Shown here: one piece after another, positions 14,781-52,416 of the stretch
How positions within the stretch are numbered: position 1 is the stretch's first letter
How the letters are laid out: every line of letters begins with the position of its first letter
Notes under the pieces: generated by a model
Told to the model about the DNA's origin: nothing
Database searches by the model: none
Seen by the model: only the letters and a program-made list of their open reading frames with translations
Program-made: the position numbers and the translations under genes
Origin: Bacteroidales bacterium
Lineage (GTDB): Bacteria; Bacteroidota; Bacteroidia; Bacteroidales; F082
DNA length: 52,416 nucleotides
NCBI GenBank assembly: GCA_016291135.1
Contig: JAEFAE010000016.1
Span: 1 to 52,416, forward strand
Reading direction: 5' to 3'

Positions 14781-14795
14781 TACTATTATTTCGCT

Positions 14796-15500: not shown

Positions 15501-15512
15501 ATGAGTTTTTTG

Positions 15513-15520
15513 TATTTTTG
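15513..15520 (+). promoter_or_regulatory. -7 promoter element for the BspA-like gene
   Basis: TATTTTTG, matching TAnnTTTG, 39 bases before the ATG at 15560. Confidence 0.6.
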
Positions 15521-15559
15521 CCGCCAAACTGAAATACAACTAAAACAAACTCATTTGTC

Positions 15560-18822: not shown

Positions 18823-18824
18823 GA

Positions 18825-19067
18825 TTAAAGTGTTGTATTCGCGCTGATAAAATCAATGACTTCGCCCACCGTGGTGAACTTGGGGTTGCCTTCGAACTTG
18901 AAAGCGAACTTGTTTTCGATGGCGAGGCTGAGCAGCAAGATGGTCAGCGAGTCCAACCCCACGTCACGGACCAGTTGCGAGTCCTCGTTGACGGTGCTGA
19001 AATCGGCGGATGGCTTGATGAGCTTCAGGATCTCCTTCAGCTCGTTGAATATTTTCTCTCTTTCCAT
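18825..19067 (-). CDS. Dedicated acyl carrier protein
   Basis: An 80-residue acidic four-helix protein with the phosphopantetheine attachment serine in VGLDSLT (residue ~40), where DSL is the canonical motif. It is not the usual housekeeping ACP: the sequence is divergent (AIENKFAFKFEGNPKFTTVG), and it is placed between an acyl ligase (3 bases upstream) and a GNAT-like protein (2 bases downstream). It probably carries the acyl group from ligase to acyltransferase. Confidence 0.88.
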   Translation of the reverse strand: MEREKIFNELKEILKLIKPSADFSTVNEDSQLVRDVGLDSLTILLLSLAIENKFAFKFEGNPKFTTVGEVIDFISANTTL

Positions 19068-19070
19068 GGC

Positions 19071-20588: not shown

Positions 20589-20753
20589 AAAAATAAAATT
20601 AAACGGGTCATTTTTTGATGGATAAAAATACAAAAATGTTCTGAATAAAAACACTTGACTTAGCGATCCCTTCAACAAAAACCACATCGTTCTAAGATTG
20701 AGGCATTTACAACCATTCATTGGATAATCTATAAATAAAAGAATTCTTTTTAT

Positions 20754-20761
20754 TATCTTTG
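20754..20761 (+). promoter_or_regulatory. -7 promoter element for the ClbS/DfsB gene
   Basis: TATCTTTG, exact match to TAnnTTTG, 48 bases before the ATG at 20810. The remaining AT-rich stretch (20589-20753) separates it from the divergent ligase gene; no clear minus-strand promoter was found there. Confidence 0.55.
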
Positions 20762-20809
20762 TGCCACACGATACGATTTCAACAAATTGTTCACAAAAGT
20801 CATCATAAC

Positions 20810-21352
20810 ATGTCCAATCCCACCAACAAACAGGAGTTGCTCGATGCCATGGCTGACAGCTATGCCAAACTGAATGAACAGATCGCCAAAATGAGCGAAG
20901 AAGCCGTCTCGGCACCTTTCGACTTTGCTGCCGACCCGAAGAAATGTGGTGTGCGCTGGCAATACGACCGATGCCTTCGCGACCTTTTGATCCACCTCTA
21001 CGAGTGGCAGGTGCTGATGCGTGAGTTTGTGAAGAACCTCCGCGAAGGTCACCCTCGCGACTACCTGCCCGACGCGTACCGCAAGAACTACCACGAGATG
21101 GACAAGATGCTGGTGGAAAAGCACCAGAGTACGCCTTTGGAGGAAGCCAAACGCCTGCTGCACGAGACCCATGAGGAGATGCTCCGTCTCGCCGAGCGCT
21201 TCACCGAAGCGGAACTCTTCACCAAAGGCTATTACAAAAACACTTACACCACCGACATGGCCGCCTACTTCGTGAGCGTCACCTCAAGTCCTTATGGGCA
21301 GGCGGTGAAACTTCTGAAGACACATCAGAAAAACTTTAAAAGGGCGAATTAA
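20810..21352 (+). CDS. ClbS/DfsB family four-helix-bundle protein
   Basis: The start [10 protein letters not shown] at 20810 gives 180 residues, the usual length of this family; a longer frame upstream would include the promoter. Recognisable blocks are [30 protein letters not shown] and [17 protein letters not shown], with [13 protein letters not shown] at the end. The family (DUF1706) includes ClbS, the colibactin self-resistance hydrolase, but most members have no proven role. It is divergent from the ligase-ACP-GNAT operon and followed by DUF1905. Confidence 0.82.
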
Positions 21353-37510: not shown

Positions 37511-40500
37511 ATGGCTATGAAAAGCACGTACTCCATCTTCAAAGACAGCGTCAAAACCATCACCGAATACTACATGCTGCTGGTCGAAGAGACTAAGTCT
37601 CAACGTCTTGTGGGCAGTACCAACGAATGGGTTCTTGACAACTATTATATGATCAGCGAACAGGAGAAAGTCCTGAAAGTGGACCTGCTGAGCAAGAGCT
37701 TCCGCAAGCTGGAAGGCGAACGCATGAAACAGCTCGAGGAAGTGCTCCGCGAGTTCCTCTCCAAGAGCCACTACCAGGTCGACAAGGACCTGTTCTTCCA
37801 CTTCCTCCAACAGGTGCAGGAAGCGCGCCAGGACTACTTCACCTATCCCGAGGTGTGCGCCCTGCTGCCGCTGATGAAATGCATCCTGCTCAAGGAGTTG
37901 GCCGGACTCTGCCGCCAGATGACCGCCGACGGGGCGTACCACTACTCTCCCACCGACAAGGCCCTGGCCGACATGGAGAAACTCAACGACGCAGCGTTGC
38001 AGAACCTGACCATGATGAACCTCTTCAATTCGTTGAAGAAGATGACCAAGCTGCCCATGTCCGAGATGATCGACAGCATCAGCTATTCCGAGAAGATGCT
38101 CAAGGAGGAGAAGGCCGACATGTACGACCAGATGTACGACCGCACCAAGGACGACTACCGGGCAAAGATCACACGGCTGAGCAAGAAACGCAAGGTCAAG
38201 GAACACGAGCTGGTGAAGGAGCTGGTGGCCAAGGCCGACGAAAAGGGCGAGCATGTAGGCTGGCAGCTCTTCCCTCCGAAGAAATGGAACGCCCGCGCCC
38301 ATTGGTATGTGTGGATCGTAGTGCTGGCCTCGCTGGGGCTGGCCCTGGGTTTTGCCACGTGGGCGACCTCCGGGCGGGGATTCAACTGGGTCTCCATCGT
38401 GCTCACCGTCCTGATGTGGGTGCCGATGAGCCAGATCGTCATCGACCTCTTCAACCAGTTGCTCTACCGCATCCATAAGCCCGTCAACACCTTCAAGATC
38501 AAGTTCAAGGACGGCTTGATCCCGAAAGAATACGCTACCATGGTCATCATGCCGACCATCCTCAAGAACAAGGCACGCACCGTGGAGCTGCTGGAACAAC
38601 TGGAGATCTACTACCTCTCCAACATCAACCGCGCTAGCGACGGACAACGTCTCGAGAGCCGTCCGCAGAACCTCTACTACACCCTCATCGGCGACGCCGC
38701 GGCAGGCCCCAACGAGGACATGCCCTGGGACGACGAGGTGGTGGAGGCCGGCCTCGCCAAGGTGAAGGAGCTCAACGCCAAATACGGGGCGCCGATCTTC
38801 AACTTCGTGTATCGCCGTCGCGCCTGGAGCGACGGCGAGAACTGCTGGCTCGGCCATGAGCGCAAGCGCGGCGCCATCCTGCATTTCAACGACCTGCTGC
38901 TGGGCAACACCTCGGAGGCCGACAAGCAGAAGCGTTTCCGCTGCGAGACCATCAGCCAGTGGCGCGAACGCCAAGCCGACCAGACCGGCACCACGGAATG
39001 CCCCATCACCTTCATCATCACCCTCGACACCGACACCGAGCTGGTGCTCTACTCGGCCCAGAAGCTCATCGGCGCCATGGCGCATCCGCTGAACCGCGCC
39101 CAGCTGTCACCCGACGGACGTCGGGTGAATGCCGGCTACGGCATCATGCAACCCCGTGTCAACGTCGACGTGGAAGTCACCAACAAGAGCCGCTACGCCC
39201 AGCTGTTCGCCGGCCTCGGCGGCCTCGACGTCTATACCACCGCCTCCTTCGAGCTCTATCAGGACATCTTCAACGAAGGCAGCTTCTGCGGCAAGGGCAT
39301 CTACGACCTGCGGGTCTTCCAGCAGGTGCTCCGGGGCACCTTCCCCGAGAACCTCATCCTCAGCCACGACCTCATCGAGGGCTGCCACATCCGCTGCGGC
39401 CTGATCAACGACCTGGAGCTGTTCGACGACAACCCGTCCAACTACATCGACGACGCCAAGCGTCACCACCGCTGGACCCGCGGCGACTGGCAGATCATCG
39501 ACTGGCTGAAGAACACCGTGCGCAACGAGAAGGGCGAGAAGGTGAAGAACCAGGTGAACACCATCGGCCGCTGGAAGATCTTCGACAACCTGCGGCGTTC
39601 CGTGCTGAGCCTCGCCCTGCTGGTGGTGCTCTTCGTCGGGTTCAGCGGCCTGATCTGGGCCCATCCCGCCTGGTTCCTGCTCGTGGCCCTGGTGGCCGTG
39701 GCGAGCCCCATCGTCTTCTTCATCCTCGGACAGATCACCAAACTGCCCTCCTTCGGCAAACGATACCACTACTACGCCACCTTGATGCGCGGCTTCCAGG
39801 TGATCATCTACCGTTCGTTCGTGCAGTTCGCCCTGCTTCCCAAGGAGGCTTGGATGTACACCGACGCCCTGATCCGTGCCTGCTACCGGATGTGGTTCAG
39901 CCACAAGAACCTGCTCAACTGGATCACCAGCGACGAGGCCGCCAAGAGCACCAAGGGCACCCTCGGCGACTACATCGGCAAGTTCTGGTTCAACTACGTG
40001 GCCTCCGCCATCCTCGCCGGGCTGTATTTCCTCTGGGGACAGGGAAGCACCATCGACCTCATCGCCTTGCTGTTCTGCGTGGTATCTTGGTGTGGCGCGC
40101 CTTTCCTCATGTTCTGGCTGGGCAAGAAGTTCCCCCAAGACAAGAAGAGCCTCAACGCCAAGGAGACCGAGGAGATCAAGCAGCTGGCCCAGGAGACCTG
40201 GCATTTCTTCGACAGCCAGATCACGGCCGACACCCATTACCTCATCCCCGACAACTACCAGCTCAACCGCGACAAGAAAGCGGACTACAAGACCTCGCCG
40301 ACCAACATCGGCTATTCACTCACTTCCATCATCTCCGCCGCCCAACTCGGATTCATCACGCATCAAGCCGCGGTGGAACGTCTGGAACACATCATCGGGA
40401 CCGTGGAGAAGCTTCCCAAGTGGAACGGCCATCTCTTCAACTGGTACCACATCGAGACGCTCAAGGCGCTGCCCAACTACTTCGTCTCCACCTGCGACAG

Positions 40501-43500
40501 CGGCAACTTCGTGGCTTGCCTCTACACCTTGAAAGGGTATCTGTTGGAAGCCAGAAGCAAGGAGACCGAAGTCGGGAACCTGATCGAACGGGTGCAGAAG
40601 CTGATCGAGAAGACCGACTTCTCGAAGCTGTACAACCCCGAGCTCGACGTGTTCAGCATCGGCTACGACTACGGCGCCCATGCCCTCCTGCCCTACCATT
40701 ACAACAACTTCGCCTCCGAGGCCCGTTTGACGAGCTTCCTCACCATCGCCCAGGGCGACGCGCCCTACAAGCACTGGTTCTGCCTCGACAAGACACTGGT
40801 GCAGTACAAGGGCTACAAGGGCGTGGCCTCGTGGTACGGCACGCTCTTCGAGTACTGCATGCCGTTGATCTTCCTGCCCACCTACAAGCACACCCTGATG
40901 GACGAGACCTACAGCTTCGCCGTCCGGGCCCAGCGCGCCTTCATCAAGAACGTCAACCCGATGCTGCCCTGGGGTATCTCCGAGACAGCATACAACGAAC
41001 TCGACGATGCGCAAAACTATAAGTATCATGCCTTTGGCGTTCCTTACCTCAAGTTCCAGAACACCACCCCCGACCGCATCGTCATCTCGCCCTACAGCTC
41101 GCTGCTGGCCATCAGCATCAACGACCGCGCGGTCTACGACAACCTGCAGCGCTTCAAGTGCCTCAACATGAACGACGACATGGGCTTCTACGAGAGCTAC
41201 GACGAAGACGACCACGTGCCGGTATATGCCCACTACGCGCACCATCAGGGCATGATCCTCGCCTCGCTGGCCAACTACCTCGACGGCCACTGCCTGCAGC
41301 ACTTCTTCATGCAGGAACCCATCTTCAAGTCGATGGAGACCCTGTTGAAGGAAAAGGCACAGGTACAGCCTTATATAGACCTCAAGGTCACGCAATACAA
41401 ACGCTATCAATACTCCAAGGTACAGACTGAGAGCGACGCCCGCGACTACGACGGCATCGCCACCGTGCCCGAGATCGGCGTGGTCAGCAACGGAAGCTAC
41501 ACCGTCCTGCTCAACGACCGCGGCTCGGGATTCTCGCGCTACCGCAACATCCTCATCAACCGCTACCGCAAGATCACGGCCGACCACCACGGCACCTATC
41601 TCTATATACGCAACCTGCGCAACGACAAGCTCTGGAGCAACACCTACTCGCCGCTCGACGTGATGCCTTCGCAATACCGGGTCAGCTTCGCCTCCGACAA
41701 GGTGAGCTACCTCCGCGTGGACGACGAGATCGAGACCAAGACGGAGATCACCGTGCTGAAGGACCACTTCGCCGAGATCCGCCGTTACACCTTCACCAAC
41801 AACGGCAGCCAGGACGTCGACCTCGAACTCACCAGCTATGGCGAGGTGGTGATGGCCCCGCGCGAGACGGACGCCTCGCACCGTATCTTCAACAGCATGA
41901 AGATCACCAGCGAATACGACAGCGAACACGAGGCCCTCATCTTCAGCAAGCCCGCCGGCGACGACGGATACAGCCAGCTCTTCGTGCTGCACAAGCTCTT
42001 CGTGGGCTACGCGGACTTCAACCACAACGACCCCGACCTCGACGTGCAGTATGAGACCTCGAGGGTCAAGTTCCTGGGCCGCGGCGGCAGCAACCGTCAC
42101 GCCTACGTCATCGACAACCACCGCACGCTGAGCAACACGGTGGGCACCACCCTCGACCCGATCATGAGCATGCGCCGCCGCATCCATGTGCCCGCTGGCG
42201 ACACGGTGGCGGCCTTCCTCATCACCGGATTCGCCAAGGCTCGCGAACAGCTCATCCAGCTGGTGGAACAATACCGCAACGCCATCGACATCGAGGATGC
42301 CTTCAAGAAAGCCTCCGTATACAACAACATGCGCACAGGCATGTCACTGCTCAAGGGTGCGCAGATGCGGCTCTACAACAGCATCTCGAAATACATCCTC
42401 CAGACGGCCACCTTCGGCAACCACCGTCAGGAGCTGCTGGCCAAGAACACGCTCTCGCAGAGCGGCCTCTGGCGCTTCGGCATCAGCGGCGACCTGGCCA
42501 TCGTCCTCATGGAGATCGACGACATCAACCGCTCCGGCTTCGCCAAGGAGATGCTCCGCGCCTTCGAATATTACAAGGTGCATGGCATGGTGCTCGACCT
42601 GGTCTTCATCAACGACGTGCCGGGCGACGACCACGACGGCCTCACCCACTTCATCCGCAACATGGCCAACACCGAACATTTGTGGGCCAACCACGAGCAG
42701 GCGGGCAAGGTGTTCATCCTCAACGGCAACGAGATCACCGACGAGGAACGCACCCTGCTGCGCACGGTGGCACGCATCGACTTCAACAACCACGAGCGTA
42801 TCGAACAGCAGCTGCAAGACCTCGAGGCGGCCAACCAACAGTATCAGGACAAGGTGGAATACCCGGTCATGAAACCCGCCGCCCAGTTCCGTGTGTGGAG
42901 CAGCCTCGACTTCTACAACCAATACGGCGGCTTCGACAACGGCGGTCGCGACTACGTGGTCACCAACACCAACACCCCGATGCCGTGGATCAACGTCATC
43001 GCCAACCCGCGCTTCGGCTGCATCGTCAGCTCCACCATGGCCGGCTTCTCGTTCGCCTTCAACGCCCAGCAGTTCAAGCTCACGGGCTGGAGCAACGACA
43101 TCGTCCGCGACAACGCCTCCGAAATGCTCCTCATCGACAAGCAGCAGTTCATCCCGGCCACAGCACGCCACGGGCAAGGCTACTCGGCCTTCGACGCACA
43201 ATACGACGAATATAACGTCAAGGTCCGTGTCTTCGTCGCCAAGGAACGCCTCGAGAAATACTACCAGATCAAGATCGAAAACAAGACCGACGCCCCCAAG
43301 GACCTGGAGCTCGACATGGTGTACAAGCTCGTGCTGGGCACCACCGAAGAGAAGACGGCCCGTTACCTCTACTCCGAATGGGACGAGGCCACGCACAGCA
43401 TCTACGTCCGCAACGTCTATCACGAGCTGTTCCGCGACACGAGGGTGCAGCTCACCGCCGTGGGCGAGGGCATCACGGGCGACCAGTTCGACTATTCGCT

Positions 43501-45166
43501 GAAATACCCGAACCGCAAGCGTCTGGGACTCAAGGTACAGGTGCCGGCCCATACCGAGAAGGCCCTCGCCTTCGTCATCGCCGTGCTCGAGAAGCCCGAA
43601 GACCAGCCGAGGACGTACAACAAGGCCATGATCGACGCGGAATACGACGAGGTGGTCCGTTTCTGGGAAGACCGGCTCACCGACATCCAGGTGGAGACGC
43701 CCGACCGCGCCTTCAACTACATGCTGAACCGCTGGTACCTCTACCAGGTGTATTCGTCGAGGCTCTTCGCCCGCGCCGGCTTCTACCAGGTGGGTGGCGC
43801 CACGGGCTTCCGCGACCAGCTGCAGGACGTGATGAGCGTCCTCTACAGCGACCCGGCCTACGCCCGTCGTCAGATCCTAGACCACGCCGCGCACCAGTTC
43901 AGCGAGGGCGACGTCCTCCACTGGTGGCATGAGCGACTGCATCTGGGTGCCCGCACCACCTTCAGCGACGACTACCTCTGGCTCGTCTATGTCACCTACC
44001 AGTACATCGAAGTCACCGGCGACTGGGGTATCCTCAGCGAACAGGTGCCCTATTGCCAGGCCGAACAGCTGGGCCACAACGAGACCGAGCGCTGCGTGCA
44101 TTACTCGGTGCCGACCCCGAACGCAGACGGAAGCCAGCAGGCGGGGTTCACCTATACCACGCTATACGAACACATGCGCCGCGCCATCGACCGCTCCAAG
44201 AGCCGCATTGGCGCCCATGGCCTGCCGCTGATGGGCTGTGGCGACTGGAACGACGGCATGAGCCGTGTAGGCGCCAAGGGCAAGGGCGAGAGCGTCTGGG
44301 TGGCCTTCTTCCTCTGCGACCTGCTGCCCAAGATGGAACGTCTCACGCAGCGGATGCCCGACGCCGACCTCAACTACTGCGAGGAACTTTCGCAGTTCCG
44401 CAGCCGTCTGGTGAAGGCCCTGCAAGACAACGCCTGGGACGGCTTCTGGTTCCTCCGCGCCTTCTTCGACAACGGCAACCCGATGGGTTCGCTCAACAAC
44501 ACGGAATGCCAGATCGACCTCATCTCGCAGGCATGGAGCATCCTCACCGACGTGGCCACGCCGGAGCAGAAGGCCTCCATCTTCCGCGAGACAGACGGCC
44601 GTCTCGTCAACCGCGAGCACGAGATCATCCAGCTGCTGACGCCGGCCTTCAAGCATTCCGCCGACAACCCGGGTTACATCATGCAGTATCCCGTGGGCAT
44701 CCGCGAGAACGGCGGCCAGTACACACATGGCGCCATGTGGTATATCATGGCCCAGCTCAAGGAGGGACGCAAAGACATGGCGTATTTCCTGTATTCGCTC
44801 ATCAACCCGATCCACCGCACCCAGTCGCTGGCCGACGTGCTCAAATACAAGGTGGAGCCGTATTGCATCGCGGCCGACATCTACAGCAACCCGCAGCATC
44901 CTGGCCGTGGCGGATGGACCTGGTATACCGGATCGGCCTCTTGGGCGTACAAGACAGGTATCGAGAACATCCTCGGCTTCCACAAGGAAGGCGACACGCT
45001 GACGGTCACACCGCATGTGCCATCGGAATGGAACGAGTTCACGCTCCGCTACCGCTTCGGCCGCAGCACGTATGTGTTACGGTACCAGCGTCCTGCGGAC
45101 GGCGAATCAGCCAGCACCGTCGTCCCATTGGTCGACGACGGTCAAACGCATGAGGTTCAAATTTAA
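37511..45166 (+). CDS. Cyclic beta-1,2-glucan synthase-like protein (GT84 + GH94)
   Basis: A 2551-residue, multi-domain membrane enzyme. After a helical N-terminus there are hydrophobic spans at residues ~262-282 and ~290-312 and another set at ~695-800. Between them is a GT84-type transferase with LDTDTELVLYSAQKL (residues ~504-518, DxD) and HHRWTRGDWQIIDWL (~651-665, the RW motif). The following region (~930-1260) is glycoamylase-like, and the C-terminal ~1200 residues are GH94: GGATGFRDQLQDVMSVLY, LHWWHERLHLGARTTFSDD and MGCGDWNDGMSRVGAKGKGE, with the catalytic Asp of GDWNDGM. Such enzymes polymerise glucose from UDP-Glc, cyclise and trim the chain. GC-rich codons stand out from its neighbours. 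Confidence 0.88.
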   Translation: MAMKSTYSIFKDSVKTITEYYMLLVEETKSQRLVGSTNEWVLDNYYMISEQEKVLKVDLLSKSFRKLEGERMKQLEEVLREFLSKSHYQVDKDLFFHFLQQVQEARQDYFTYPEVCALLPLMKCILLKELAGLCRQMTADGAYHYSPTDKALADMEKLNDAALQNLTMMNLFNSLKKMTKLPMSEMIDSISYSEKMLKEEKADMYDQMYDRTKDDYRAKITRLSKKRKVKEHELVKELVAKADEKGEHVGWQLFPPKKWNARAHWYVWIVVLASLGLALGFATWATSGRGFNWVSIVLTVLMWVPMSQIVIDLFNQLLYRIHKPVNTFKIKFKDGLIPKEYATMVIMPTILKNKARTVELLEQLEIYYLSNINRASDGQRLESRPQNLYYTLIGDAAAGPNEDMPWDDEVVEAGLAKVKELNAKYGAPIFNFVYRRRAWSDGENCWLGHERKRGAILHFNDLLLGNTSEADKQKRFRCETISQWRERQADQTGTTECPITFIITLDTDTELVLYSAQKLIGAMAHPLNRAQLSPDGRRVNAGYGIMQPRVNVDVEVTNKSRYAQLFAGLGGLDVYTTASFELYQDIFNEGSFCGKGIYDLRVFQQVLRGTFPENLILSHDLIEGCHIRCGLINDLELFDDNPSNYIDDAKRHHRWTRGDWQIIDWLKNTVRNEKGEKVKNQVNTIGRWKIFDNLRRSVLSLALLVVLFVGFSGLIWAHPAWFLLVALVAVASPIVFFILGQITKLPSFGKRYHYYATLMRGFQVIIYRSFVQFALLPKEAWMYTDALIRACYRMWFSHKNLLNWITSDEAAKSTKGTLGDYIGKFWFNYVASAILAGLYFLWGQGSTIDLIALLFCVVSWCGAPFLMFWLGKKFPQDKKSLNAKETEEIKQLAQETWHFFDSQITADTHYLIPDNYQLNRDKKADYKTSPTNIGYSLTSIISAAQLGFITHQAAVERLEHIIGTVEKLPKWNGHLFNWYHIETLKALPNYFVSTCDSGNFVACLYTLKGYLLEARSKETEVGNLIERVQKLIEKTDFSKLYNPELDVFSIGYDYGAHALLPYHYNNFASEARLTSFLTIAQGDAPYKHWFCLDKTLVQYKGYKGVASWYGTLFEYCMPLIFLPTYKHTLMDETYSFAVRAQRAFIKNVNPMLPWGISETAYNELDDAQNYKYHAFGVPYLKFQNTTPDRIVISPYSSLLAISINDRAVYDNLQRFKCLNMNDDMGFYESYDEDDHVPVYAHYAHHQGMILASLANYLDGHCLQHFFMQEPIFKSMETLLKEKAQVQPYIDLKVTQYKRYQYSKVQTESDARDYDGIATVPEIGVVSNGSYTVLLNDRGSGFSRYRNILINRYRKITADHHGTYLYIRNLRNDKLWSNTYSPLDVMPSQYRVSFASDKVSYLRVDDEIETKTEITVLKDHFAEIRRYTFTNNGSQDVDLELTSYGEVVMAPRETDASHRIFNSMKITSEYDSEHEALIFSKPAGDDGYSQLFVLHKLFVGYADFNHNDPDLDVQYETSRVKFLGRGGSNRHAYVIDNHRTLSNTVGTTLDPIMSMRRRIHVPAGDTVAAFLITGFAKAREQLIQLVEQYRNAIDIEDAFKKASVYNNMRTGMSLLKGAQMRLYNSISKYILQTATFGNHRQELLAKNTLSQSGLWRFGISGDLAIVLMEIDDINRSGFAKEMLRAFEYYKVHGMVLDLVFINDVPGDDHDGLTHFIRNMANTEHLWANHEQAGKVFILNGNEITDEERTLLRTVARIDFNNHERIEQQLQDLEAANQQYQDKVEYPVMKPAAQFRVWSSLDFYNQYGGFDNGGRDYVVTNTNTPMPWINVIANPRFGCIVSSTMAGFSFAFNAQQFKLTGWSNDIVRDNASEMLLIDKQQFIPATARHGQGYSAFDAQYDEYNVKVRVFVAKERLEKYYQIKIENKTDAPKDLELDMVYKLVLGTTEEKTARYLYSEWDEATHSIYVRNVYHELFRDTRVQLTAVGEGITGDQFDYSLKYPNRKRLGLKVQVPAHTEKALAFVIAVLEKPEDQPRTYNKAMIDAEYDEVVRFWEDRLTDIQVETPDRAFNYMLNRWYLYQVYSSRLFARAGFYQVGGATGFRDQLQDVMSVLYSDPAYARRQILDHAAHQFSEGDVLHWWHERLHLGARTTFSDDYLWLVYVTYQYIEVTGDWGILSEQVPYCQAEQLGHNETERCVHYSVPTPNADGSQQAGFTYTTLYEHMRRAIDRSKSRIGAHGLPLMGCGDWNDGMSRVGAKGKGESVWVAFFLCDLLPKMERLTQRMPDADLNYCEELSQFRSRLVKALQDNAWDGFWFLRAFFDNGNPMGSLNNTECQIDLISQAWSILTDVATPEQKASIFRETDGRLVNREHEIIQLLTPAFKHSADNPGYIMQYPVGIRENGGQYTHGAMWYIMAQLKEGRKDMAYFLYSLINPIHRTQSLADVLKYKVEPYCIAADIYSNPQHPGRGGWTWYTGSASWAYKTGIENILGFHKEGDTLTVTPHVPSEWNEFTLRYRFGRSTYVLRYQRPADGESASTVVPLVDDGQTHEVQI

Positions 45167-45167
45167 A

Positions 45168-45481
45168 GGCACCCCTGCGGGGTGCCTTGTCGGTAGCCCA
45201 GGGTTGACCAACGGGAAACCCTGGGATCATGATAACGGATAAATGATTATTTTTTTTCATTATTCCACATTTCCAGGGGTTCCACCCCTGGCTACCGATA
45301 TCAAACCCCTACGGGGTTCCGTATCGCATCACGCCCCTGTTAGGGGGCGCCCTGTCGGTAACACATCCCGTAGGGGTGTCCTGTCGGTAGCCCACGGTGC
45401 CAACCGTGGGAAATCGGAACGATTTTCGGAAACGCACCCCGTAGGGGTGCCCTATCGGTAGCCCACGGCGTCAGCCGTGGG
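45168..45481. repeat. REP-like palindromic repeat cluster (five units)
   Basis: Intergenic region of 327 bases (45167-45493) without a gene. Five copies of one unit are present: a GC hairpin of CCCCGTAGGGG type, the spacer GGGGTGYCCTRTCGGTAGCC, and usually a second hairpin CCCACGG-n-CCGTGGG. Units lie at 45168-45225 (+), 45273-45318 (inverted), 45332-45360 (+, second hairpin lost), 45364-45410 (+) and 45434-45481 (+). Mixed orientation and spacing argue against CRISPR; the form is that of REP/BIME elements mobilised by RAYT-type transposases. No such transposase gene is in this window. The first hairpin may also terminate the preceding gene. Confidence 0.85.
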
Positions 45482-45493
45482 AATGTGATGAAA

Positions 45494-46015
45494 TCACATT
45501 TGATAGGTGTTGATCACCCCGATGGCCTCTTCGAGGATCATCTTCACCAACACCCCGTCGGACATACGGTACATCAGATCCACCGAATTGTATCCGCCCC
45601 GCGGCACCTTGCCCTTGGCCTTGATGACCACATGACGGAACCCGTCGGCCTCTTCCACCGTCGTCTCCGCGTTGTTGTCGATGGCAGCCTGTTCCCAGTT
45701 GCCAGCGATGCAGTTCAGCAGCGTAGCCCTTTGCATCCGCACCAGCTTCACCTTGTCCGCATCCAGCTCCGCCTTCTTGCCGTTCAGGTTCATCTTCACC
45801 TTATTGCCTTCCACGATGAAATACTCCCCTTCGGGCTCGCTGTAAGTCATCGTGAGCTGGTCTTTGCCGTCGAAGGTGAGATGCCCCGCCTTGTTCGTGG
45901 TCTTGCCCGATATCTTCATGTGTCGGGTCTGCGTGAAATCCGTGTCGAGAGGCTGCTGTGCCCACACCGTCGCCGCAAACAACAGGGCGGCGGCAAACAT
46001 TACCATCCTTTTCAT
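45494..46015 (-). CDS. LolA-like outer-membrane carrier protein
   Basis: A 173-residue periplasmic protein with signal peptide (MKRMVMFAAALLFAATVWAQ). The body has the LolA half-barrel pattern: FTQTRHMKISGK, AGHLTFDGKDQLTMTYSEP (residues ~42-60) and GEYFIVEGNKVKMNL. LolA itself ferries lipoproteins to the outer membrane; relatives beside lipid-synthesis and MMPL genes (aryl polyene or flexirubin clusters) are thought to carry lipids. The start overlaps the ACP stop (ATGA), so this is the last gene of the seven-gene operon. Being next to ACP, PlsX and an exporter, a lipid-carrying role is likely. Confidence 0.8.
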   Translation of the reverse strand: MKRMVMFAAALLFAATVWAQQPLDTDFTQTRHMKISGKTTNKAGHLTFDGKDQLTMTYSEPEGEYFIVEGNKVKMNLNGKKAELDADKVKLVRMQRATLLNCIAGNWEQAAIDNNAETTVEEADGFRHVVIKAKGKVPRGGYNSVDLMYRMSDGVLVKMILEEAIGVINTYQM

Positions 46016-46239
46016 TGCTTCAGAGAATCCAAAAAGTTACACACGTCGCCCACGGTCTCGAACTTCGCCAGTTCCTGATCGGGGATCACAATACCATAGC
46101 CGTCTTCCAGGCGCATCAACAGCTGGAGGATGTCCACCGAATCCGCACCCAGGTCTTTCTTGATCTGCGCATCCATGGTGACCCGCTCGGGAGCCACCCT
46201 CAGCTGACGCGCCAAAATTTCCTTTACCTGTTCAAACAT
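46012..46239 (-). CDS. Dedicated acyl carrier protein (second copy)
   Basis: A 75-residue acidic protein with the attachment serine in GADSVDILQLLMRLED (residues ~31-46), the DSV variant of the ACP motif. It is divergent from the usual AcpP sequence and from the other ACP here (18825-19067). It is placed between plsX (via an 80-base gap with tandem repeats) and a LolA-like gene with a four-base overlap. It is likely to receive acyl groups from PlsX and donate them to the GNAT-like protein. Confidence 0.88.
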   Translation of the reverse strand: MFEQVKEILARQLRVAPERVTMDAQIKKDLGADSVDILQLLMRLEDGYGIVIPDQELAKFETVGDVCNFLDSLKQ

Positions 46240-46262
46240 GTTTATTATCGATTGATCTATTT

Positions 46263-46322
46263 TTCAGACTTCTTTTTCTATCTTCAGATTTCTTTTTCTA
46301 TCATCAGACTTCTTGTTTCTAA
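46263..46322. repeat. Three tandem 20-bp repeats between plsX and acp
   Basis: Units of 20 bp at 46263, 46283 and 46303, each close to TTCAGACTTCTTTTTCTATC. On the coding (minus) strand they form an A/G-rich leader just before the ACP gene and overlap the plsX stop. They may set spacing or mRNA structure between the two genes. Confidence 0.8.
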
Positions 46323-47338
46323 TATTCATAATGCTCATAACGCATGATGATCTCCTCCATCTTCGAGGACAACGCGCTCACTTCCATGCGGTAGGCCTGT
46401 TCGATGCATTTCTCCACGGCGACGGCTTTGCTGGAGCCGTGGCCTTTGACCACCGTCTTCGAGGTCCCGAGCAGCACGCTTCCCCCGTAGTTCTGGTAGT
46501 TCATGAATGCCTTCTCCTCGGCGAACATCCGCTTCATCAGCAAGGCACCCAGCTTGTAGATGCCACGCGAGTAGATGTCCTTCTTCAGCTTCTTCAACAG
46601 CTCCAAGGCCGTCCCTTCGGTCGTCTTCACCAACACATTGCCCGAGAAGCCGTCACACACCACCACGTCATAACGCCCCGACAGCAGGTCACGGCTCTCC
46701 ATGTTGCCCACGAAATTGATTTCGGGCGTCTCACTTAGCAAAATGTATGCCTTTTGTCTGATCTCATCCCCTTTTTCTGCTTCCTTGCCTACATTCAGCA
46801 GGGCGACACGCGGCGTCGCGATGCCATAGACCTGTTCCATGTAGAGGCTGGCCATGATGGCGAACTGTCGCAGATGCTCCGGGGTCACCTCCACGTTGGC
46901 GCCGCTGTCGCAGATGCCCACGAGGCCGCCGTCCATGGTCGGCAGGATGGGACAGAATGCAGGACGGATCACCCCTTTCACCCTACCGATGCGGGTGAGG
47001 GCGGCAGCCACCAGGGCGCCCGTCGATCCCGTGCTCACCATGGCGTTGAGGTCGTCGCGGTCGCGCAACAGGCGCACCGCCTTGATCATCGAGCTCTCCT
47101 TCTTCAGGCGGATCACGTCGATGGGACGTTCGTCGCAGCCGATCACCTCCGGGGCATGGACGATCTCCAGACGTGCCGCGTCGTAGGCCTTCCCTTTCAA
47201 GGCGTTTTGCAGCGTCGCCTCGTCGCCGGTCAGGATCACATAGAGGTCAGGGAGCTTGTCCAGCGCCATCAGGGCGCCGTCTACGTTGGCTTTCGGGCTG
47301 TGGTCGCCCCCAAAACAATCGATGAGGATGTGGATCAT
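46319..47338 (-). CDS. plsX: Phosphate acyltransferase PlsX
   Basis: A 339-residue enzyme with the N-terminal DCFGGDHSPKANVDGAL (family DxxGGD motif), MVSTGSTGALVAAALTRIGR (residues ~99-118), RPAFCPILPTMDG and CDGFSGNVLVKTTEGTAL (residues ~229-246). PlsX interconverts acyl-ACP and acyl-phosphate in the cytoplasm. Here it sits with FakA/FakB, which make acyl-phosphate from fatty acids, and with a dedicated ACP, so the direction acyl-phosphate to acyl-ACP is plausible. Some Bacteroidales have another plsX beside rpmF and fabH; that locus is not in this window, so this may be a second, specialised copy. Confidence 0.9.
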   Translation of the reverse strand: MIHILIDCFGGDHSPKANVDGALMALDKLPDLYVILTGDEATLQNALKGKAYDAARLEIVHAPEVIGCDERPIDVIRLKKESSMIKAVRLLRDRDDLNAMVSTGSTGALVAAALTRIGRVKGVIRPAFCPILPTMDGGLVGICDSGANVEVTPEHLRQFAIMASLYMEQVYGIATPRVALLNVGKEAEKGDEIRQKAYILLSETPEINFVGNMESRDLLSGRYDVVVCDGFSGNVLVKTTEGTALELLKKLKKDIYSRGIYKLGALLMKRMFAEEKAFMNYQNYGGSVLLGTSKTVVKGHGSSKAVAVEKCIEQAYRMEVSALSSKMEEIIMRYEHYEY

Positions 47339-47361
47339 GGTTAGCTATTAATTCAATATGA

Positions 47362-48483
47362 TTAGGTTAATTGTTTCACATAACAACGATACCGTTTCAC
47401 CTTCTGTTCGTCGAAACGTTTCCATTGGTTTTGGATGGCATAGTTGTCCTCCAGGTTGAGGTTGGTGTCTGCATACAGGACACCCGGACGCTGAAGCATT
47501 TTCATCAGGTTGGCCGACACGATGACGCTGACGCCCCGGTTCAGCCACTCGGGATCCACGCCGATCAGGCACAGGTCGATCACCGAGGGACGCTTCAAGG
47601 CCTTCAGCAGACGCAACAAGGCCAAGGGCGTCAGGCGACCGCCGGAGGGACGCACCGCGTCGGCGATGCCCGGGAACGCCAGGCCGAAACAGACCATCTT
47701 GTCATTCTCGTCCAAGATCACCGCCACGTTCTTCACATCGACCACCATCCTGAAGTTGTCGATCATCATCTTCTTCATCCCTTCCGTGAAAGGCACCGTG
47801 CCATAGAGCAGCTCATACGACTTGTCGAGCAGCTCGAAGATGCCGTCTGCATAGCGTTTGATGAAATCGTTGGTGTTGCGCGCCGGCCCCAGGTGGAGGT
47901 TATAGCGTTTCATCACGAAGTCGGCCAGGTGGTCCAGCTCCCCGTTGTAGTCTTTAGGGACACGGATATGACTCCCCGTCCAATCCACCTCCTTTTGATA
48001 GCCCAAGGCCTCCATGAAGGTCGGGTAATATGGATGGTTGTAGCTCTCTTCGAAGGTCGCCGGGGTGTCGAAGCCTTCGATGAGCATCCCCTCGCGTTCG
48101 AGGTCGGAGAAGCCCAGGGGACCCACCACCTTCTCCATGCCGATCGAACGCGCCCAGTCTTCCACCGCCTGGAACAACGCCCGGGCCACTTCCAGGTCCT
48201 CGACGACGTCGAACCGGGTGAAACGCACCTGCTTTTCCCCATTTTTCTCGTTGGACGCCTTCTGCAGGATGCCCGAAATGCGGCCGGCCATCACGCCGTC
48301 GCGATACGCATTGAAATACACCGCCTCGCAACAGTCGTTATAGACATAGCTTTGCTTGAAGATCTTACGTTCGTCCATGGACAAGGGCGGTGCGAAATAC
48401 GGATTCCCCTTGTAGAGCCGCAACGGGAACTCGATGAATTCCTTCTGCTGTTTTCTGGTGGTTACGCTTTCTACTGTAATCAT
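47362..48483 (-). CDS. GNAT-fold acyltransferase-like protein (373 aa), FakAB-PlsX operon
   Basis: Paralogue of 17701-18822, equal in length. Shared blocks are FPLRLYKGNPYFAPPL (residues ~19-34), CCEAVYFNAYRDG, VVGPLGFSDLEREGMLIEGF (residues ~119-138), YNHPYYPTFMEALGYQKEVDW and a C-terminal GNAT motif region, CLIGVDPEWLNRGVSVIVS (~303-321). It is 24 bases upstream of plsX and 36 downstream of the DegV gene, so in the same operon. I infer transfer of an acyl group from ACP or acyl-phosphate to an amine or hydroxyl acceptor. Confidence 0.75.
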   Translation of the reverse strand: MITVESVTTRKQQKEFIEFPLRLYKGNPYFAPPLSMDERKIFKQSYVYNDCCEAVYFNAYRDGVMAGRISGILQKASNEKNGEKQVRFTRFDVVEDLEVARALFQAVEDWARSIGMEKVVGPLGFSDLEREGMLIEGFDTPATFEESYNHPYYPTFMEALGYQKEVDWTGSHIRVPKDYNGELDHLADFVMKRYNLHLGPARNTNDFIKRYADGIFELLDKSYELLYGTVPFTEGMKKMMIDNFRMVVDVKNVAVILDENDKMVCFGLAFPGIADAVRPSGGRLTPLALLRLLKALKRPSVIDLCLIGVDPEWLNRGVSVIVSANLMKMLQRPGVLYADTNLNLEDNYAIQNQWKRFDEQKVKRYRCYVKQLT

Positions 48484-48519
48484 GACATGATGGTTTAGGT
48501 GATAGCCCGACAGGATACG

Positions 48520-49389
48520 TTAACGGTGTTTTGCGTGGAAACAGATGCCGAGTCCGTTGGGGCCACAGTGGCTGCCGATGGTGGGATTCACCACGGTGGT
48601 CAGCACGCGGAGGTCCTGTCCGAACTTCTCCTTCAGCTGCCGTTCCGCCTCGGCCGCGATCTCCGGACAGTCCGAGTGGCCGATGACCACACGGTGCGCC
48701 TTGACGTCCTCGCCGAGCTCCTCAACATACTGCACCAGGCGCGCGATGGCCTTGGCGCGGCCCTTCTCCTTGCCGATCGACACCATCTTGCCTTCGTCGT
48801 TCAGGTAGATGATGGGACGGATGCCGATGAGGCCGCCCATGGTGGCCGCCAGCCCGCTCACACGACCGCTGCGGCGGAAGAACTTCAGGTCGTCGGCGAA
48901 GAAATACATCGGGAACTTCGGCACCTCCACCTTGGCCCATTCGACGATCTCCTCGGCTGTCTTGCCCGCCTTGTACAGATCGGCGGCTTCCAACACCACA
49001 TTGAGCGACAAGGCCGTGATGCCTAGGGTATCCACCTCGTGGAACTTCCGCTCCGGATACTTCGCCTTGAGCTTCTCCACCGCCTGGTTCATGATGGTGA
49101 ACGTATTGGAAGTCCCCGAGGAGAAATGCACATAAAGGATGTCGTTCCCCGCAGCGAACTCCGGTTCAAAATACTGCAGATACGCCTCTTCGCTCATGGC
49201 ACTGGTCGTCGGCATGGTGCCGGCACGCAGCATCTCGTAGAACGCATGGGCGTCGAATTCCTGAAAATCAATATATGGGTAAACAACCTGTTCCCCCACA
49301 GTATACGGCATACTGATCAATTTGATGCCATATTCGGCACACTCCTTGGGAGTGATGTCGCAATCCGTATCGGTAAAAAATGTCAACAT
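48520..49389 (-). CDS. fakB: DegV-family fatty-acid-binding protein (FakB)
   Basis: A 289-residue DegV-fold protein: FFTDTDCDITPKECAEYGI at the N-terminus, MPTTSAMSEEAYLQYFE (residues ~59-75), HFSSGTSNTFTIM (~88-100, SSGTS fatty-acid carboxylate loop), FFRRSGRVSGLAATMGG (~170-186) and HSDCPE. FakB binds a free fatty acid and presents it to FakA for phosphorylation. The start overlaps the FakA stop by seven bases, so the pair is co-translated. The system is described mainly in Firmicutes; here it lies in a Bacteroidales-type genome. Confidence 0.88.
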   Translation of the reverse strand: MLTFFTDTDCDITPKECAEYGIKLISMPYTVGEQVVYPYIDFQEFDAHAFYEMLRAGTMPTTSAMSEEAYLQYFEPEFAAGNDILYVHFSSGTSNTFTIMNQAVEKLKAKYPERKFHEVDTLGITALSLNVVLEAADLYKAGKTAEEIVEWAKVEVPKFPMYFFADDLKFFRRSGRVSGLAATMGGLIGIRPIIYLNDEGKMVSIGKEKGRAKAIARLVQYVEELGEDVKAHRVVIGHSDCPEIAAEAERQLKEKFGQDLRVLTTVVNPTIGSHCGPNGLGICFHAKHR

Positions 49390-51026
49390 AAAACCAAAAT
49401 ATAATCATAGATCGGCTGTCCGCCGTTGTTCAACATAATCTCAAGCATCGGATACGTCTTTGCCAGTGTCTCGACCAGGGCTTGTGCCTCCTCGGCAGGG
49501 ACCCTTTCCCCGTAAAACACCACCATTACGTCTCGTTCAGCGGCGCCCAGACGCGCCACCAGGTCTTGGACGGCATGGCTCCGGTTGGGTGAGTCAGAGA
49601 GCATCCGCTTCCCGCTGTAGCCCACAAAGTCGCCCTTACGCACCGTCACGTTGTCGCCCTCCGCGTCGCGGATGGCGGTGGACACCATGCCGGTGACCAC
49701 CGACTGCATGACCTCGTTCACCCCTTGGATCACCTCCTCTACCGCACTCAAGGAACGGTCCACCGAAGCCACGCCGTAGTAGCCCTCCCCTAGGGTGGCC
49801 GAAGGCATCACATGCACCTCCGCCCCTTTGTACAGGGAGGCAGCCTGTTCCGCTGCCATGCGGATGTTCGGGTTGTTCGGAAACACCAGGATATGCTGGG
49901 CGTGAAGCTGCCTGAAGGCTGCAACGAACTCCTGGGTGGAGGGATTCATGGTCTGACCACCCTCGATCACCACGTCGGCACCGCTCTCCTCGAACCGTTG
50001 CTTCATCCCCGTACCCATCGCCACGGTCACGACACCGTAACGTTGTTGGGGTCGGCTGAACGAGGCCTCGCCTTCCTCCTTCTTCCATTCGTTGTGCTGG
50101 AGCGACATGTTCTCGATCTTGAGAGTGAGAAACTCCCCATAGCGTTGCATCTCGTTGAGGATCACGCCTGGGGTGAAGGTGTGGACATGTACCTTCACGA
50201 TGGTGCCCTCACGGAAGGCCACCACCGATTCGCCCACACGGTTCAGGTAGTCGATGATCACCTGCTCGTCGAAGGTGTCAGGATCCACCTTGGACCGCAT
50301 CAGACGCAACAGGAACTCCGTGCAATAGCCGAATTCGAGGGTGCTGTCCTCCGTGAACCTGCCCAGGTCGACCGTAGGAGCCGCCGGTGCAGCAACGGTC
50401 AACGGCTCCTCGTCACACACTTGGCCACACAAGGCCGCGTCCATGCCACGGAACACGCAGCACAGGCCTGCGCCGCCACTGTCAACGACGCCAGCGTCTT
50501 TCAGCACCTGCAGCAGCTCGGGGGTGTGGTCCAACGAGGCCTGCATCGCCGGCAAGAGGGTCTCGAAATAGCGGTTCAGGTCTGAGGAGGCATCCGCTCC
50601 GGCTACGCCTTCGCGGAGCACCGTCAACATGGTCCCCTCCACCGGCACCGGCACCGACTTATAGGCCTCGGACACAGCCTCATTCATGGCTCGGGCAAAG
50701 GTCTCCGTGTCGGCGACGACGACCCCTTTCAGTCCTTTCGCCAATCCGGCAAAGATCCTTGAGAGGATCACCCCGGAGTTGCCTCGGGCACCCAGCAACA
50801 TGCCCGACGAAGCCGCCGCGGCGATCTCGGAGAGCGTCCCCAGGTGGTCTTGGACGGCGGTGCAACCCGCCTTCATGGTCATATACATATTATCGCCCGT
50901 GTCACCGTCCGGGATGGGAAACACATTCAGGTCGTTGATCGTAGCCTTTTCTTTTCCTAAAACGGCCGCCCCTTGACGAAGCATGGCGGCAAAAGTCACA
51001 CTGTCTAGTTCCGTTGTTCTTTCCAT
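49383..51026 (-). CDS. fakA: Fatty-acid kinase FakA (DhaL/DAK2 domain)
   Basis: A 547-residue kinase. The N-terminal DhaL domain has INDLNVFPIPDGDTGDNMY (residues ~26-44), the Asp cluster that binds Mg-ATP, and MLLGARGNSGVILSRIFAG (~75-93). The rest is the middle and C-terminal FakA domains, with HVHTFTPGVILNEM (residues ~277-290) and VVFYGERVPAEEAQAL near the end. It phosphorylates FakB-bound fatty acid to acyl-phosphate, the substrate of PlsX two genes downstream. It overlaps the MMPL gene by 22 bases and the FakB gene by seven. Confidence 0.9.
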   Translation of the reverse strand: MERTTELDSVTFAAMLRQGAAVLGKEKATINDLNVFPIPDGDTGDNMYMTMKAGCTAVQDHLGTLSEIAAAASSGMLLGARGNSGVILSRIFAGLAKGLKGVVVADTETFARAMNEAVSEAYKSVPVPVEGTMLTVLREGVAGADASSDLNRYFETLLPAMQASLDHTPELLQVLKDAGVVDSGGAGLCCVFRGMDAALCGQVCDEEPLTVAAPAAPTVDLGRFTEDSTLEFGYCTEFLLRLMRSKVDPDTFDEQVIIDYLNRVGESVVAFREGTIVKVHVHTFTPGVILNEMQRYGEFLTLKIENMSLQHNEWKKEEGEASFSRPQQRYGVVTVAMGTGMKQRFEESGADVVIEGGQTMNPSTQEFVAAFRQLHAQHILVFPNNPNIRMAAEQAASLYKGAEVHVMPSATLGEGYYGVASVDRSLSAVEEVIQGVNEVMQSVVTGMVSTAIRDAEGDNVTVRKGDFVGYSGKRMLSDSPNRSHAVQDLVARLGAAERDVMVVFYGERVPAEEAQALVETLAKTYPMLEIMLNNGGQPIYDYILVLC

Positions 51027-52416
51027 GGTTTTTTCGACATTACACGACGCTTGTATGCGGGGATCTTCAGCAGCTGTCTGAACACGAACGGCTGAAGAGA
51101 ATAAGAGATCAAGATGGTCGAGAGCATTCCGATCAGGGTGCTGAGCCCGATGGAACGGATGGCGGGATGCACGGCAAACAGCAGGGAGGCGATGACGATG
51201 ATCAGGATGAGCGCAGAGAAGAAGATGGCCACCTTATGCCAGGTGAGCATGTCGCGGCTGCCCGTCCGTGCCTCAGAGAGCAGCCCTTCCGTGATGAAGA
51301 TGCTGTAGTCCACCCCGATGCCGAAGATAAAGGTGGAGATGATGATGTTGATCAGGTTGAATTCCAGGCCGATCAGCGCCATGTAGCCCTGCACCATGAA
51401 CCAGCTGAGGACCATGGGCAGGAAGGAAAGCAGGGCCGTCAGCAGGTTGCGGAAGGAGATCAGCAGGATCACCAGCACAAACAGCGACGAGATCCACACC
51501 GCGATGTTGAAGTCGTCGTGGATGACCTCCACCATGTCCTTGCAGTAATAGAAGGGGTCAAGCACGAAGGTCTTGGGGTTGGCGATGGCCGCGGCGATCA
51601 CCGCGTCCTTGTCGTCGGGATGCATCGAGACGTCGGTGAACACCATGTATTGTCCGTCGGCGTTGCACTCGATGAAGTTGCCCAACAGGTTTTCCGGCAC
51701 CACGCCGCTCTCATAGAGCGATGCCGGCTCGTATTCGTTATCGAGAAGGTATTGGAAATCGGCGAATAGGTCCGGGTCGAGCTCCAGTTTGGCAGCCTGT
51801 TCACGTACCATGGACATCGTGGCCGCCTTTCGATCGTCCGTCCAGAAAGCGTTCCAGGCGGCGATGCGTGCCTCCTGCTCCGTTTCGGTGACAAACAGGC
51901 TGGGTATCATATCGTTATAGCCATGGACAATGCCCTGTTCCCTCAGGGTGTCCAAACAGACCATCAGCGAACGGTCGGCCTCCAGCGCCTCGTCGAGCTC
52001 AGTGGAGACGGTGGCGAAATACTGATGCACGAAGCCGTCGTTGTGCTTCTCGTTGAACAGTGCCTCGCTCTCCAGCTCGTCGGCCGAGTTGTAGTCCAGA
52101 TGCCTCAAGTCACTGTCGAAATGCACCTTCGGTGCGAAGACGATGCCCACCACGATGAGGACTCCCATCAAGGCAATGAACCATTTCCTTCGGTCGAACG
52201 GCAGGGCGTTGACACGACGGATCATCCTGAATACTAGATGGTTGGGATCCGCCTTGCGCTCTGGCAGGAAATGTGGCAGAAAGACCAAGGCGAAGAACGT
52301 GCTCCCCAGCAAGGCCAGCGAGGCGAAGATGCCGAAGTCACGCAAGAGGTCGCTTTCGGTGAACAGAAGGCTACAGAAGGCGCCCACGGTGGTGATGCAT
52401 CCCAGGAACACCGGGG
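51005..52416 (-). CDS. MMPL-type RND transporter, C-terminal part, truncated at the right edge
   Basis: About 470 residues up to the end of the window; the frame is open to the last base and no true start is present. Hydrophobic spans occur at residues ~1-17, 26-45, 79-98, then after a ~190-residue loop at ~300-320, 326-345, 352-372, 401-421 and 433-453. The FGIGVDYSIFITEG segment (~370-384) is the MMPL/RND signature. Half of the ~800-residue protein is missing. MMPL proteins next to ACP and LolA-like genes are typical of aryl polyene, flexirubin and related lipid clusters, where they are thought to export the lipid. It leads the seven-gene operon. Confidence 0.82.
   Translation of the reverse strand, partial: PVFLGCITTVGAFCSLLFTESDLLRDFGIFASLALLGSTFFALVFLPHFLPERKADPNHLVFRMIRRVNALPFDRRKWFIALMGVLIVVGIVFAPKVHFDSDLRHLDYNSADELESEALFNEKHNDGFVHQYFATVSTELDEALEADRSLMVCLDTLREQGIVHGYNDMIPSLFVTETEQEARIAAWNAFWTDDRKAATMSMVREQAAKLELDPDLFADFQYLLDNEYEPASLYESGVVPENLLGNFIECNADGQYMVFTDVSMHPDDKDAVIAAAIANPKTFVLDPFYYCKDMVEVIHDDFNIAVWISSLFVLVILLISFRNLLTALLSFLPMVLSWFMVQGYMALIGLEFNLINIIISTFIFGIGVDYSIFITEGLLSEARTGSRDMLTWHKVAIFFSALILIIVIASLLFAVHPAIRSIGLSTLIGMLSTILISYSLQPFVFRQLLKIPAYKRRVMSKKPWKEQRN

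Follow-up and report, generated by a model that had tools for sequence, protein, structure and literature searches.

We analysed a window of 52,416 nucleotides from a Bacteroidales bacterium (assembly GCA_016291135.1, contig JAEFAE010000016.1), the right end of which carries a seven-gene operon that combines FakA, FakB, PlsX, an acyl carrier protein (ACP) and a GNAT-fold acyltransferase with an MMPL transporter and a LolA-like protein. This analysis showed that the operon divides into a transferable cassette of five genes and a separable pair, MMPL and LolA. Sequence comparisons indicate that the acyltransferase belongs to the CerS/YghO family of bacterial ceramide synthases, which suggests an acceptor that a preliminary description of this DNA had left open. 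We see about an even chance that the cassette converts scavenged fatty acid, by way of acyl-phosphate and acyl-ACP, into an N-acylated long-chain base, followed by predicted export. The fuller proposal is put forward tentatively: a portable cassette for ceramide-type N-acylation built on acyl-phosphate chemistry, in which FakAB and a dedicated PlsX would replace the AMP-forming ligase that charges ACP. It may move between single-membrane Clostridia, where it would supply the missing ceramide synthase for pairs of serine palmitoyltransferase (SPT) and KdsR, and double-membrane Bacteroidales, where it would be slotted between mmpl and lolA acting as a sphingolipid exporter.

The preliminary description had grouped the seven same-strand genes into one operon, and this operon proved to be real, at 45494–52414 of the minus strand:

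51005–52414, minus strand: MMPL/RND-type transporter (PF03176, 66 bits); only the C-terminal 469 amino acids, cut by the contig end
49383–51026, minus strand: FakA, fatty-acid kinase catalytic subunit of the YloV type (TIGR03599, 515 bits)
48520–49389, minus strand: FakB, fatty-acid binding subunit of the DegV family (PF02645, 198 bits)
47362–48483, minus strand: CerS/YghO-family N-acyltransferase ("GNAT"), clade A (29% full-length identity to YghO; AlphaFold 2 model with a tandem-GNAT fold)
46319–47338, minus strand: PlsX, acyl-phosphate:ACP acyltransferase of an operon-specific clade (TIGR00182, 332 bits, cut-off 243)
46012–46239, minus strand: ACP of the cassette (PF00550, 55 bits; TIGR00517, 79 bits; DSV at 33)
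45494–46015, minus strand: LolA-like periplasmic carrier with a LolA fold, second member of the putative export pair

The GNAT protein has no match in Pfam or NCBIfam. It aligns with Escherichia coli YghO over the full length (144 bits, E = 4e-44), and its AlphaFold 2 model (pLDDT 92.2) has the tandem-GNAT fold. The accessible part of PMC9386255 gives yghO and CC_1154 as one gene, aca, required for dihydroceramide, and CC_1154 is also named as CerS in the accessible part of PMC11324152; the step from YghO to CC_1154 follows the orthology stated in the former source, not an alignment to CC_1154. Genomic neighbourhoods of relatives are consistent with this assignment. In E. coli, yghO comes after lptF, lptG and genes for SPT, ACP, an epimerase/dehydratase and a fatty acyl-AMP ligase, in this order; the SPT there scores 600 bits against NF047599 (cut-off 500). 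According to PMC9386255, the spt cluster with yghO is also present in the laboratory strain BL21(DE3). In Sphingomonas, some 6 kb separate a homologue from an SPT (833 bits, cut-off 670) and an ACP. Several Bacteroidales paralogues, assigned to clade C, are encoded in GNAT–SPT–KdsR operons; in one of these (locus L043; L and G numbers denote loci and genomes) the SPT scores 662 bits against NF047600 (cut-off 640), and the reductase has its best match to KdsR at 324 bits, below the cut-off of 400. When plasmid records were searched by tblastn with a clade C paralogue, it matched YghO (27.6% identity over 99% of the query, E = 2e-38) as well as further members in Sphingomonas and Roseomonas. The family is large, with 6126 matches to the window GNAT among 7999 scored candidates. 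In a tree of 70 rows its groups separate, with Shimodaira–Hasegawa-like approximate likelihood ratio test (SH-aLRT) support of 100 for clade A, which holds the operon enzyme, 99 for clade B and 100 for clade C; this tree and that of PlsX are quick trees with SH-aLRT support and no bootstrap. A sequence search of solved structures gave nothing useful, and fold searches listed no "ceramide synthase" among their top 50 matches each, which is uninformative on absence. The tandem-GNAT structures with bound donor named in these fold searches use CoA thioesters.

The remaining proteins could be assigned to families with differing precision. In FakA, the Dak2, FakA-like_M (FakA-M) and FakA-like_C (FakA-C) domains all score above Pfam cut-offs, and the TIGR03599 match exceeds its threshold of 396 bits; among solved structures, the protein reaches 337 bits with a dihydroxyacetone-kinase-related kinase (7w7h) and 150 bits with Fatty Acid Kinase A (8vip). 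It contains DGDTGDNM at residue 40 and VHVHT at 279, which we take to be FakA motifs. FakB matches 25 solved DegV/FakB-type sequences at E ≤ 1e-3 and contains TTS, SSGTSNT, RSGR and HCGP, presumably motifs of FakB. Both proteins miss the NCBIfam equivalog cut-offs (FakA_VfrB, 416 of 975 bits; FakB1, 95 of 350 bits), in models that we assume were built on staphylococcal-type proteins, and are therefore filed as FakA/YloV- and DegV-family members, not as those equivalogs. The LolA-like protein has a LolA fold and stays below the curated cut-offs (PF03548, 21.9 of 23.6 bits; TIGR00547, 19.3 of 112; LolA2_flexi, 56.5 of 125), so we keep the name "LolA-like". Complete MMPL homologues have about 826 amino acids, and complete copies are present in L034–L036 and L090.

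To define the unit, we scanned named genomes for loci and used the best 80 of 187 loci, with 58–88% identity to the window GNAT, as the basis of the neighbour counts for Bacteroidales and other loci. These comprise 44 loci from Bacteroidales and 36 others, mostly from Clostridia, with one from Treponema and one from a record titled Syntrophobacterales; cultured Eubacterium ruminantium ATCC 17233 (L178) is among them. The prevalence of Clostridia in the second set fits the earlier remark that FakAB is known mainly from Firmicutes. Five of the operon genes keep together across genomes: the cassette FakA–FakB–GNAT–PlsX–ACP recurs in gut and rumen Bacteroidales and Clostridia, that is, in two phyla. 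Counted on the same strand and only for loci with enough sequence, all of which were found through their GNAT gene, FakB accompanies GNAT in 35/39 Bacteroidales and 24/27 other loci, FakA in 37/39 and 22/27, PlsX in 40/40 and 22/27, and ACP in 39/40 and 15/27, respectively; all four are present in 32/37 and 9/20. In the Clostridial family of genome G048, FakA or FakB adjoins GNAT in all ten hand-picked loci (nine A-type and one copy of 49% identity), and in none of the ten inspected loci with a GNAT of another type.

The export pair follows a different pattern. MMPL was found in 26/34 Bacteroidales loci and in 0/22 others, and LolA on the same strand in 26/40 and 0/25; in several further Bacteroidales a LolA-like gene directly follows ACP on the opposite strand. 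Neither was seen at the locus of Treponema, an organism with two membranes. The five genes lie between mmpl and lolA in Bacteroidales, as in G012 (L034), where the order is module B (described below), LolA–ACP–PlsX–GNAT–FakB–FakA–MMPL and a reductase gene. In G007 (L090), mmpl and lolA are adjacent and the five genes are absent: the flanks align to G012 at 78–82%, and 64 bases occupy the site that spans 4970 in G012. This comparison indicates that mmpl–lolA is a separate unit and that the five genes were gained or lost together, in either direction. The seven genes described earlier as a single unit are thus linked in Bacteroidales, but they resolve into five plus two.

Individual copies of the cassette show further variation. 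A variant operon in G026, from another Bacteroidales family, is split over two contigs (L106, L107) and encodes FakA, FakB, a 458-amino-acid PlsC-like acyltransferase, PlsX and ACP. FakA is in two pieces in G019 (L038, 5631–7183), which reflects either a genuine frameshift or a mistake in the assembly. A TetR-type regulator (TetR_C_8 above cut-off) is encoded just before FakA at L159 6787–7413, and look-alikes were seen by eye in other Clostridial copies. After ACP, E. ruminantium (L178, 13790–14452) and a Lachnospiraceae genome (L171, 7412–8173) each encode a membrane-type protein, and the two resemble each other by eye; that of L171 scores 24.5 bits against PAP2 (cut-off 27.2) and the L178 copy has no match, and a head-group enzyme is possible.

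The PlsX of the operon appears to be dedicated to it. In 24 genomes of the same genus, PlsX was found in seven, all of them operon carriers, and the contig of the eighth carrier stops before the gene; it was not detected in the 16 genomes that lack the operon. It is the only PlsX found in the genome of the window, and the Bacteroidales carriers have one each where it was seen. Operon PlsX proteins from both phyla form one clade (SH-aLRT 100), apart from a comparison set of four non-operon Clostridial and seven other Bacteroidales PlsX. PlsY, which would consume acyl-phosphate, was found in none of the eight same-genus carriers and none of eight further Bacteroidales carriers. PlsX is therefore expected to run towards ACP in these organisms, and charging ACP would be the sole visible use of acyl-phosphate. 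A housekeeping role for this PlsX was set aside on three grounds, the lack of any PlsY hit in Bacteroidales carriers, the lack of any PlsX hit in same-genus genomes without the operon, and the separate clade of the operon proteins. Among 32 non-Bacteroidales carriers, 30 have PlsY and 16 at least two PlsX.

Genome content offers a view on the acceptor. Within the genus, an SPT of at least 60% identity occurs in 7/8 genomes with the operon (module A) and in 4/16 without it (Fisher p = 0.008, for related genomes that are not independent events, with relatedness uncorrected); for the co-occurrence tests SPT was called at 56% identity or higher, and 11 genomes missing from the listing of GNAT matches in the Clostridial family described below were scored as having none. 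Among 40 further GNAT carriers, SPT was found in 6/8 Bacteroidales (620–667 bits, five above the cut-off of 640) and in 13/32 others (500–549 bits, under this cut-off and above the approximately 350 bits of other family members). The Clostridial family of G048 has an A enzyme in 40 of 103 genomes, another member of the GNAT family in 32 and none detected in 31, and SPT in 37/40, 26/32 and 24/31 of these, respectively (87/103 overall). In 39 of the 40 A-type genomes, no family member other than the A enzyme was detected, gene pieces in G140 and G146 being counted once. Among the SPT loci of 13 Clostridial clade-A carriers, ten have a KdsR-like gene no more than 326 bases from SPT, and none of the 13 fetched stretches contains a GNAT-family open reading frame (ORF). 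Sphingolipid genes, namely SPT-like genes with KdsR-like neighbours, seem common in this gut Clostridial lineage. Co-occurrence with SPT was dropped as proof, being significant only in the Bacteroidales genus.

Based on the named protein families, FakB would bring the fatty acid, FakA would phosphorylate it while it is held by FakB, and PlsX, which exchanges acyl groups between phosphate and ACP, would work here towards the ACP of the cassette. The CerS-family enzyme would then use acyl-ACP and an amine, N-acylating a long-chain base to a ceramide-type lipid. Judging from genome content only, the amine may be sphinganine or 3-ketosphinganine, supplied by an SPT (with KdsR) whose genes lie outside the operon, and gene order suggests that in Bacteroidales MMPL and the LolA-like protein may carry the product out of the inner membrane. 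The preliminary description had drawn a route from FakAB over acyl-phosphate, PlsX and ACP to a GNAT protein and export; as a prediction this fits our findings, with the correction that the GNAT protein is not anonymous, as it appears to belong to the CerS/YghO family.

A number of observations count against this proposal, and many of them concern the acceptor. With only 29% identity to YghO, the acceptor of the window enzyme may have changed. SPT was not found in the genome of the window (G000, 83% complete), where one of two SPT-like matches is a glycine C-acetyltransferase above cut-off and the other a relative below every cut-off; nor was it found in the sister genomes G073 and G074 or in 19/32 non-Bacteroidales GNAT carriers, including E. 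ruminantium and Treponema. The close relative G072 encodes a clade C GNAT, SPT and KdsR (L227, 7413–10610) directly before an acyl-ACP thioesterase gene, whose counterpart lies at 14796–15500 in a part of the window (14790–16584) with 93% DNA identity to L227; this block has no match in the window, which carries a glycosyltransferase gene at 13596–14790 instead. Genomes of the Clostridial family often have SPT regardless of the A enzyme (50/63 of those without it), so that its association with the A enzyme is not significant (p = 0.096). Moreover, the SPT-neighbouring L050 falls outside clade C, and the SPT label is scattered over the clade-A tree. These absences, together with the separation of clade A from the mostly SPT-linked clade C, would favour the same chemistry of acyl-phosphate, acyl-ACP and N-acyltransferase acting on an acceptor other than a sphingoid base made by the cell, either another amine (an amino acid, amino alcohol or lipid amine) or a scavenged long-chain base. 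We consider this explanation rather unlikely overall, given that the GNAT belongs to the CerS family, that most same-genus and Clostridial-family carriers have SPT, and that clade A is nearly always the sole family member detected in the latter. For some carriers, a scavenged base or another amine is possible, and we therefore treat the acceptor as inferred.

Other counter-evidence lies in the composition of the loci. Several Clostridial copies lack an adjacent PlsX or ACP, L183, L188 and L191 have GNAT and ACP without FakAB, G016 and G021 carry other DNA between MMPL and FakA, and G026 has its PlsC-like gene in the place of GNAT. The last point would suit general fatty-acid salvage, in which FakAB and PlsX supply acyl-ACP to ordinary phospholipids, as they do in Firmicutes according to the accessible literature, with GNAT, MMPL and LolA as passengers; the operon PlsX being the only one found in Bacteroidales carriers agrees with this as well. 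Such a role is improbable, since the PlsY needed to use acyl-phosphate was not found in those carriers, same-genus genomes without the operon have no detectable PlsX, half of the non-Bacteroidales carriers have at least two PlsX, and FakA, FakB and PlsX accompany GNAT across two phyla, in loci found by GNAT. Loci that lack PlsX raise the question of whether the CerS relative accepts acyl-phosphate straight from FakA–FakB, with PlsX and ACP merely balancing the pool: FakA or FakB adjoins GNAT without PlsX in four of nine inspected A-type loci (L265 near a contig end), and PlsX is missing downstream in 5/27 assessable non-Bacteroidales loci, of which L188 and L191 also lack FakAB. We judge this quite improbable, as PlsX is next door in every assessable Bacteroidales locus and the donor-bound tandem-GNAT structures carry CoA thioesters; for the five loci without PlsX, three genomes were searched, with PlsX found elsewhere in G054 and G065 and none in G063. 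To our knowledge, aryl-polyene or flexirubin loci do not include FakAB, PlsX or a CerS relative, and a pigment locus of this type with MMPL and LolA as exporter is very hard to credit. Its attraction lies in the 56.5 bits of the LolA-like protein against LolA2_flexi and in the occurrence of lolA2 in flexirubin loci (PMC11885536, accessible part), but that score is under the cut-off. The preliminary description had raised the aryl-polyene alternative, which gained no support from L036, the only complete copy scanned for it. Upstream of MMPL, L036 encodes SecG, an unknown protein, LptE and a sigma-54 activator; none of these four genes, nor the one upstream gene scanned in L035, encodes a ketosynthase, and the pigment reading was set aside on this and on the LolA2_flexi score.

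The proposed ceramide-type pathway resembles several known systems in part. The Rhodobacterial sphingolipid cluster (AasR, AcpR, Spt, CerR and CerS, equivalent to Caulobacter CC_1165–1162 and CC_1154, and with yghO in E. coli) likewise has its own ACP, a means of loading this carrier with free fatty acid and an N-acyltransferase of the CerS family, according to the accessible parts of PMC9386255 and PMC11324152. There, a single AMP-forming ligase does the charging, the charged ACP has been shown to feed SPT, and LptC2/F2/G2 are the proposed exporters, whereas the window operon has FakA, FakB and PlsX, its ACP beside the N-acyltransferase, MMPL and a LolA-like protein as candidate exporters, and SPT and reductase outside; module A contains no AMP ligase of the AasR–AcpR type. 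With the FakAB–PlsX pathway for exogenous fatty acids of Firmicutes it shares FakA, FakB, PlsX and the conversion of free fatty acid into acyl-ACP. As far as the accessible sources describe it, that pathway serves glycerolipids through PlsY, and elongation, whereas here PlsX forms a separate clade and is partnered with a CerS relative, and Bacteroidales carriers gave no PlsY hit. The clade C operons, of dihydroceramide type and often in the same genomes, contain a paralogous N-acyltransferase, but SPT and reductase adjoin it there, and no FakAB, PlsX or ACP was seen beside L043. The LolA2/LolB2 proteins of flexirubin loci are a further parallel, in that a protein with the LolA fold may be dedicated to a single lipid pathway (PMC11885536, accessible part), although no pigment genes were seen here. 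Each half of the scheme is known, and the joining of FakAB–PlsX to ceramide-type synthesis is, as far as we know, new; among the papers listed by searches of a collection with few subscription titles, none was seen to link the two. Regarding export, the accessible part of PMC11324152 describes the route of sphingolipids from inner to outer membrane as not known, and that of PMC11087976 states that no sphingolipid flippase or transporter has been identified.

Elsewhere, the window contains a second set of related genes, module B:

17701–18822, minus strand: second CerS/YghO-family N-acyltransferase, clade B by tree (30% identity to YghO, 154 bits)
18825–19067, minus strand: ACP of module B (PF00550, 23.6 bits, cut-off 20.8)
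19071–20915, minus strand: AMP-forming acyl ligase of module B (PF00501, 186 bits), ORF as called

The true start of the ligase is probably near 20600, as relatives have about 500 amino acids. Module B shares the design of one carrier and one N-acyltransferase with the operon and uses an AMP ligase in place of FakAB–PlsX. Counterparts of 17701–20915 lie beside module A in G012 (L034) and beside mmpl–lolA in G007 (L090). Next to the operon, the convergent intergenic stretch 45167–45490 holds what looks by eye like a row of palindromic repeats, one copy of which (45435–45481, minus strand) scores 38.1 bits against the Rfam family Acido-Lenti-1 (RF01687; gathering threshold 37). On its other side, 37511–45166 (plus strand) encodes a 2551-amino-acid GH94-domain protein, which we take to be cyclic-glucan-synthase-like and which also lies beside the operon in L122, L123, L138, L140 and L143. 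An Eco57I-type restriction-modification methylase is encoded near the left contig end (1419–4466, plus strand).

Gut bacterial sphingolipids act on the host. If the proposed function is correct, the operon would represent a second route for charging the acyl chain, one without an AMP ligase, and MMPL and the LolA-like protein could be named as a candidate export pair. The cassette would also provide a candidate ceramide synthase for Clostridia that have SPT–KdsR pairs with no such gene adjoining, and a likely function for a large protein family.

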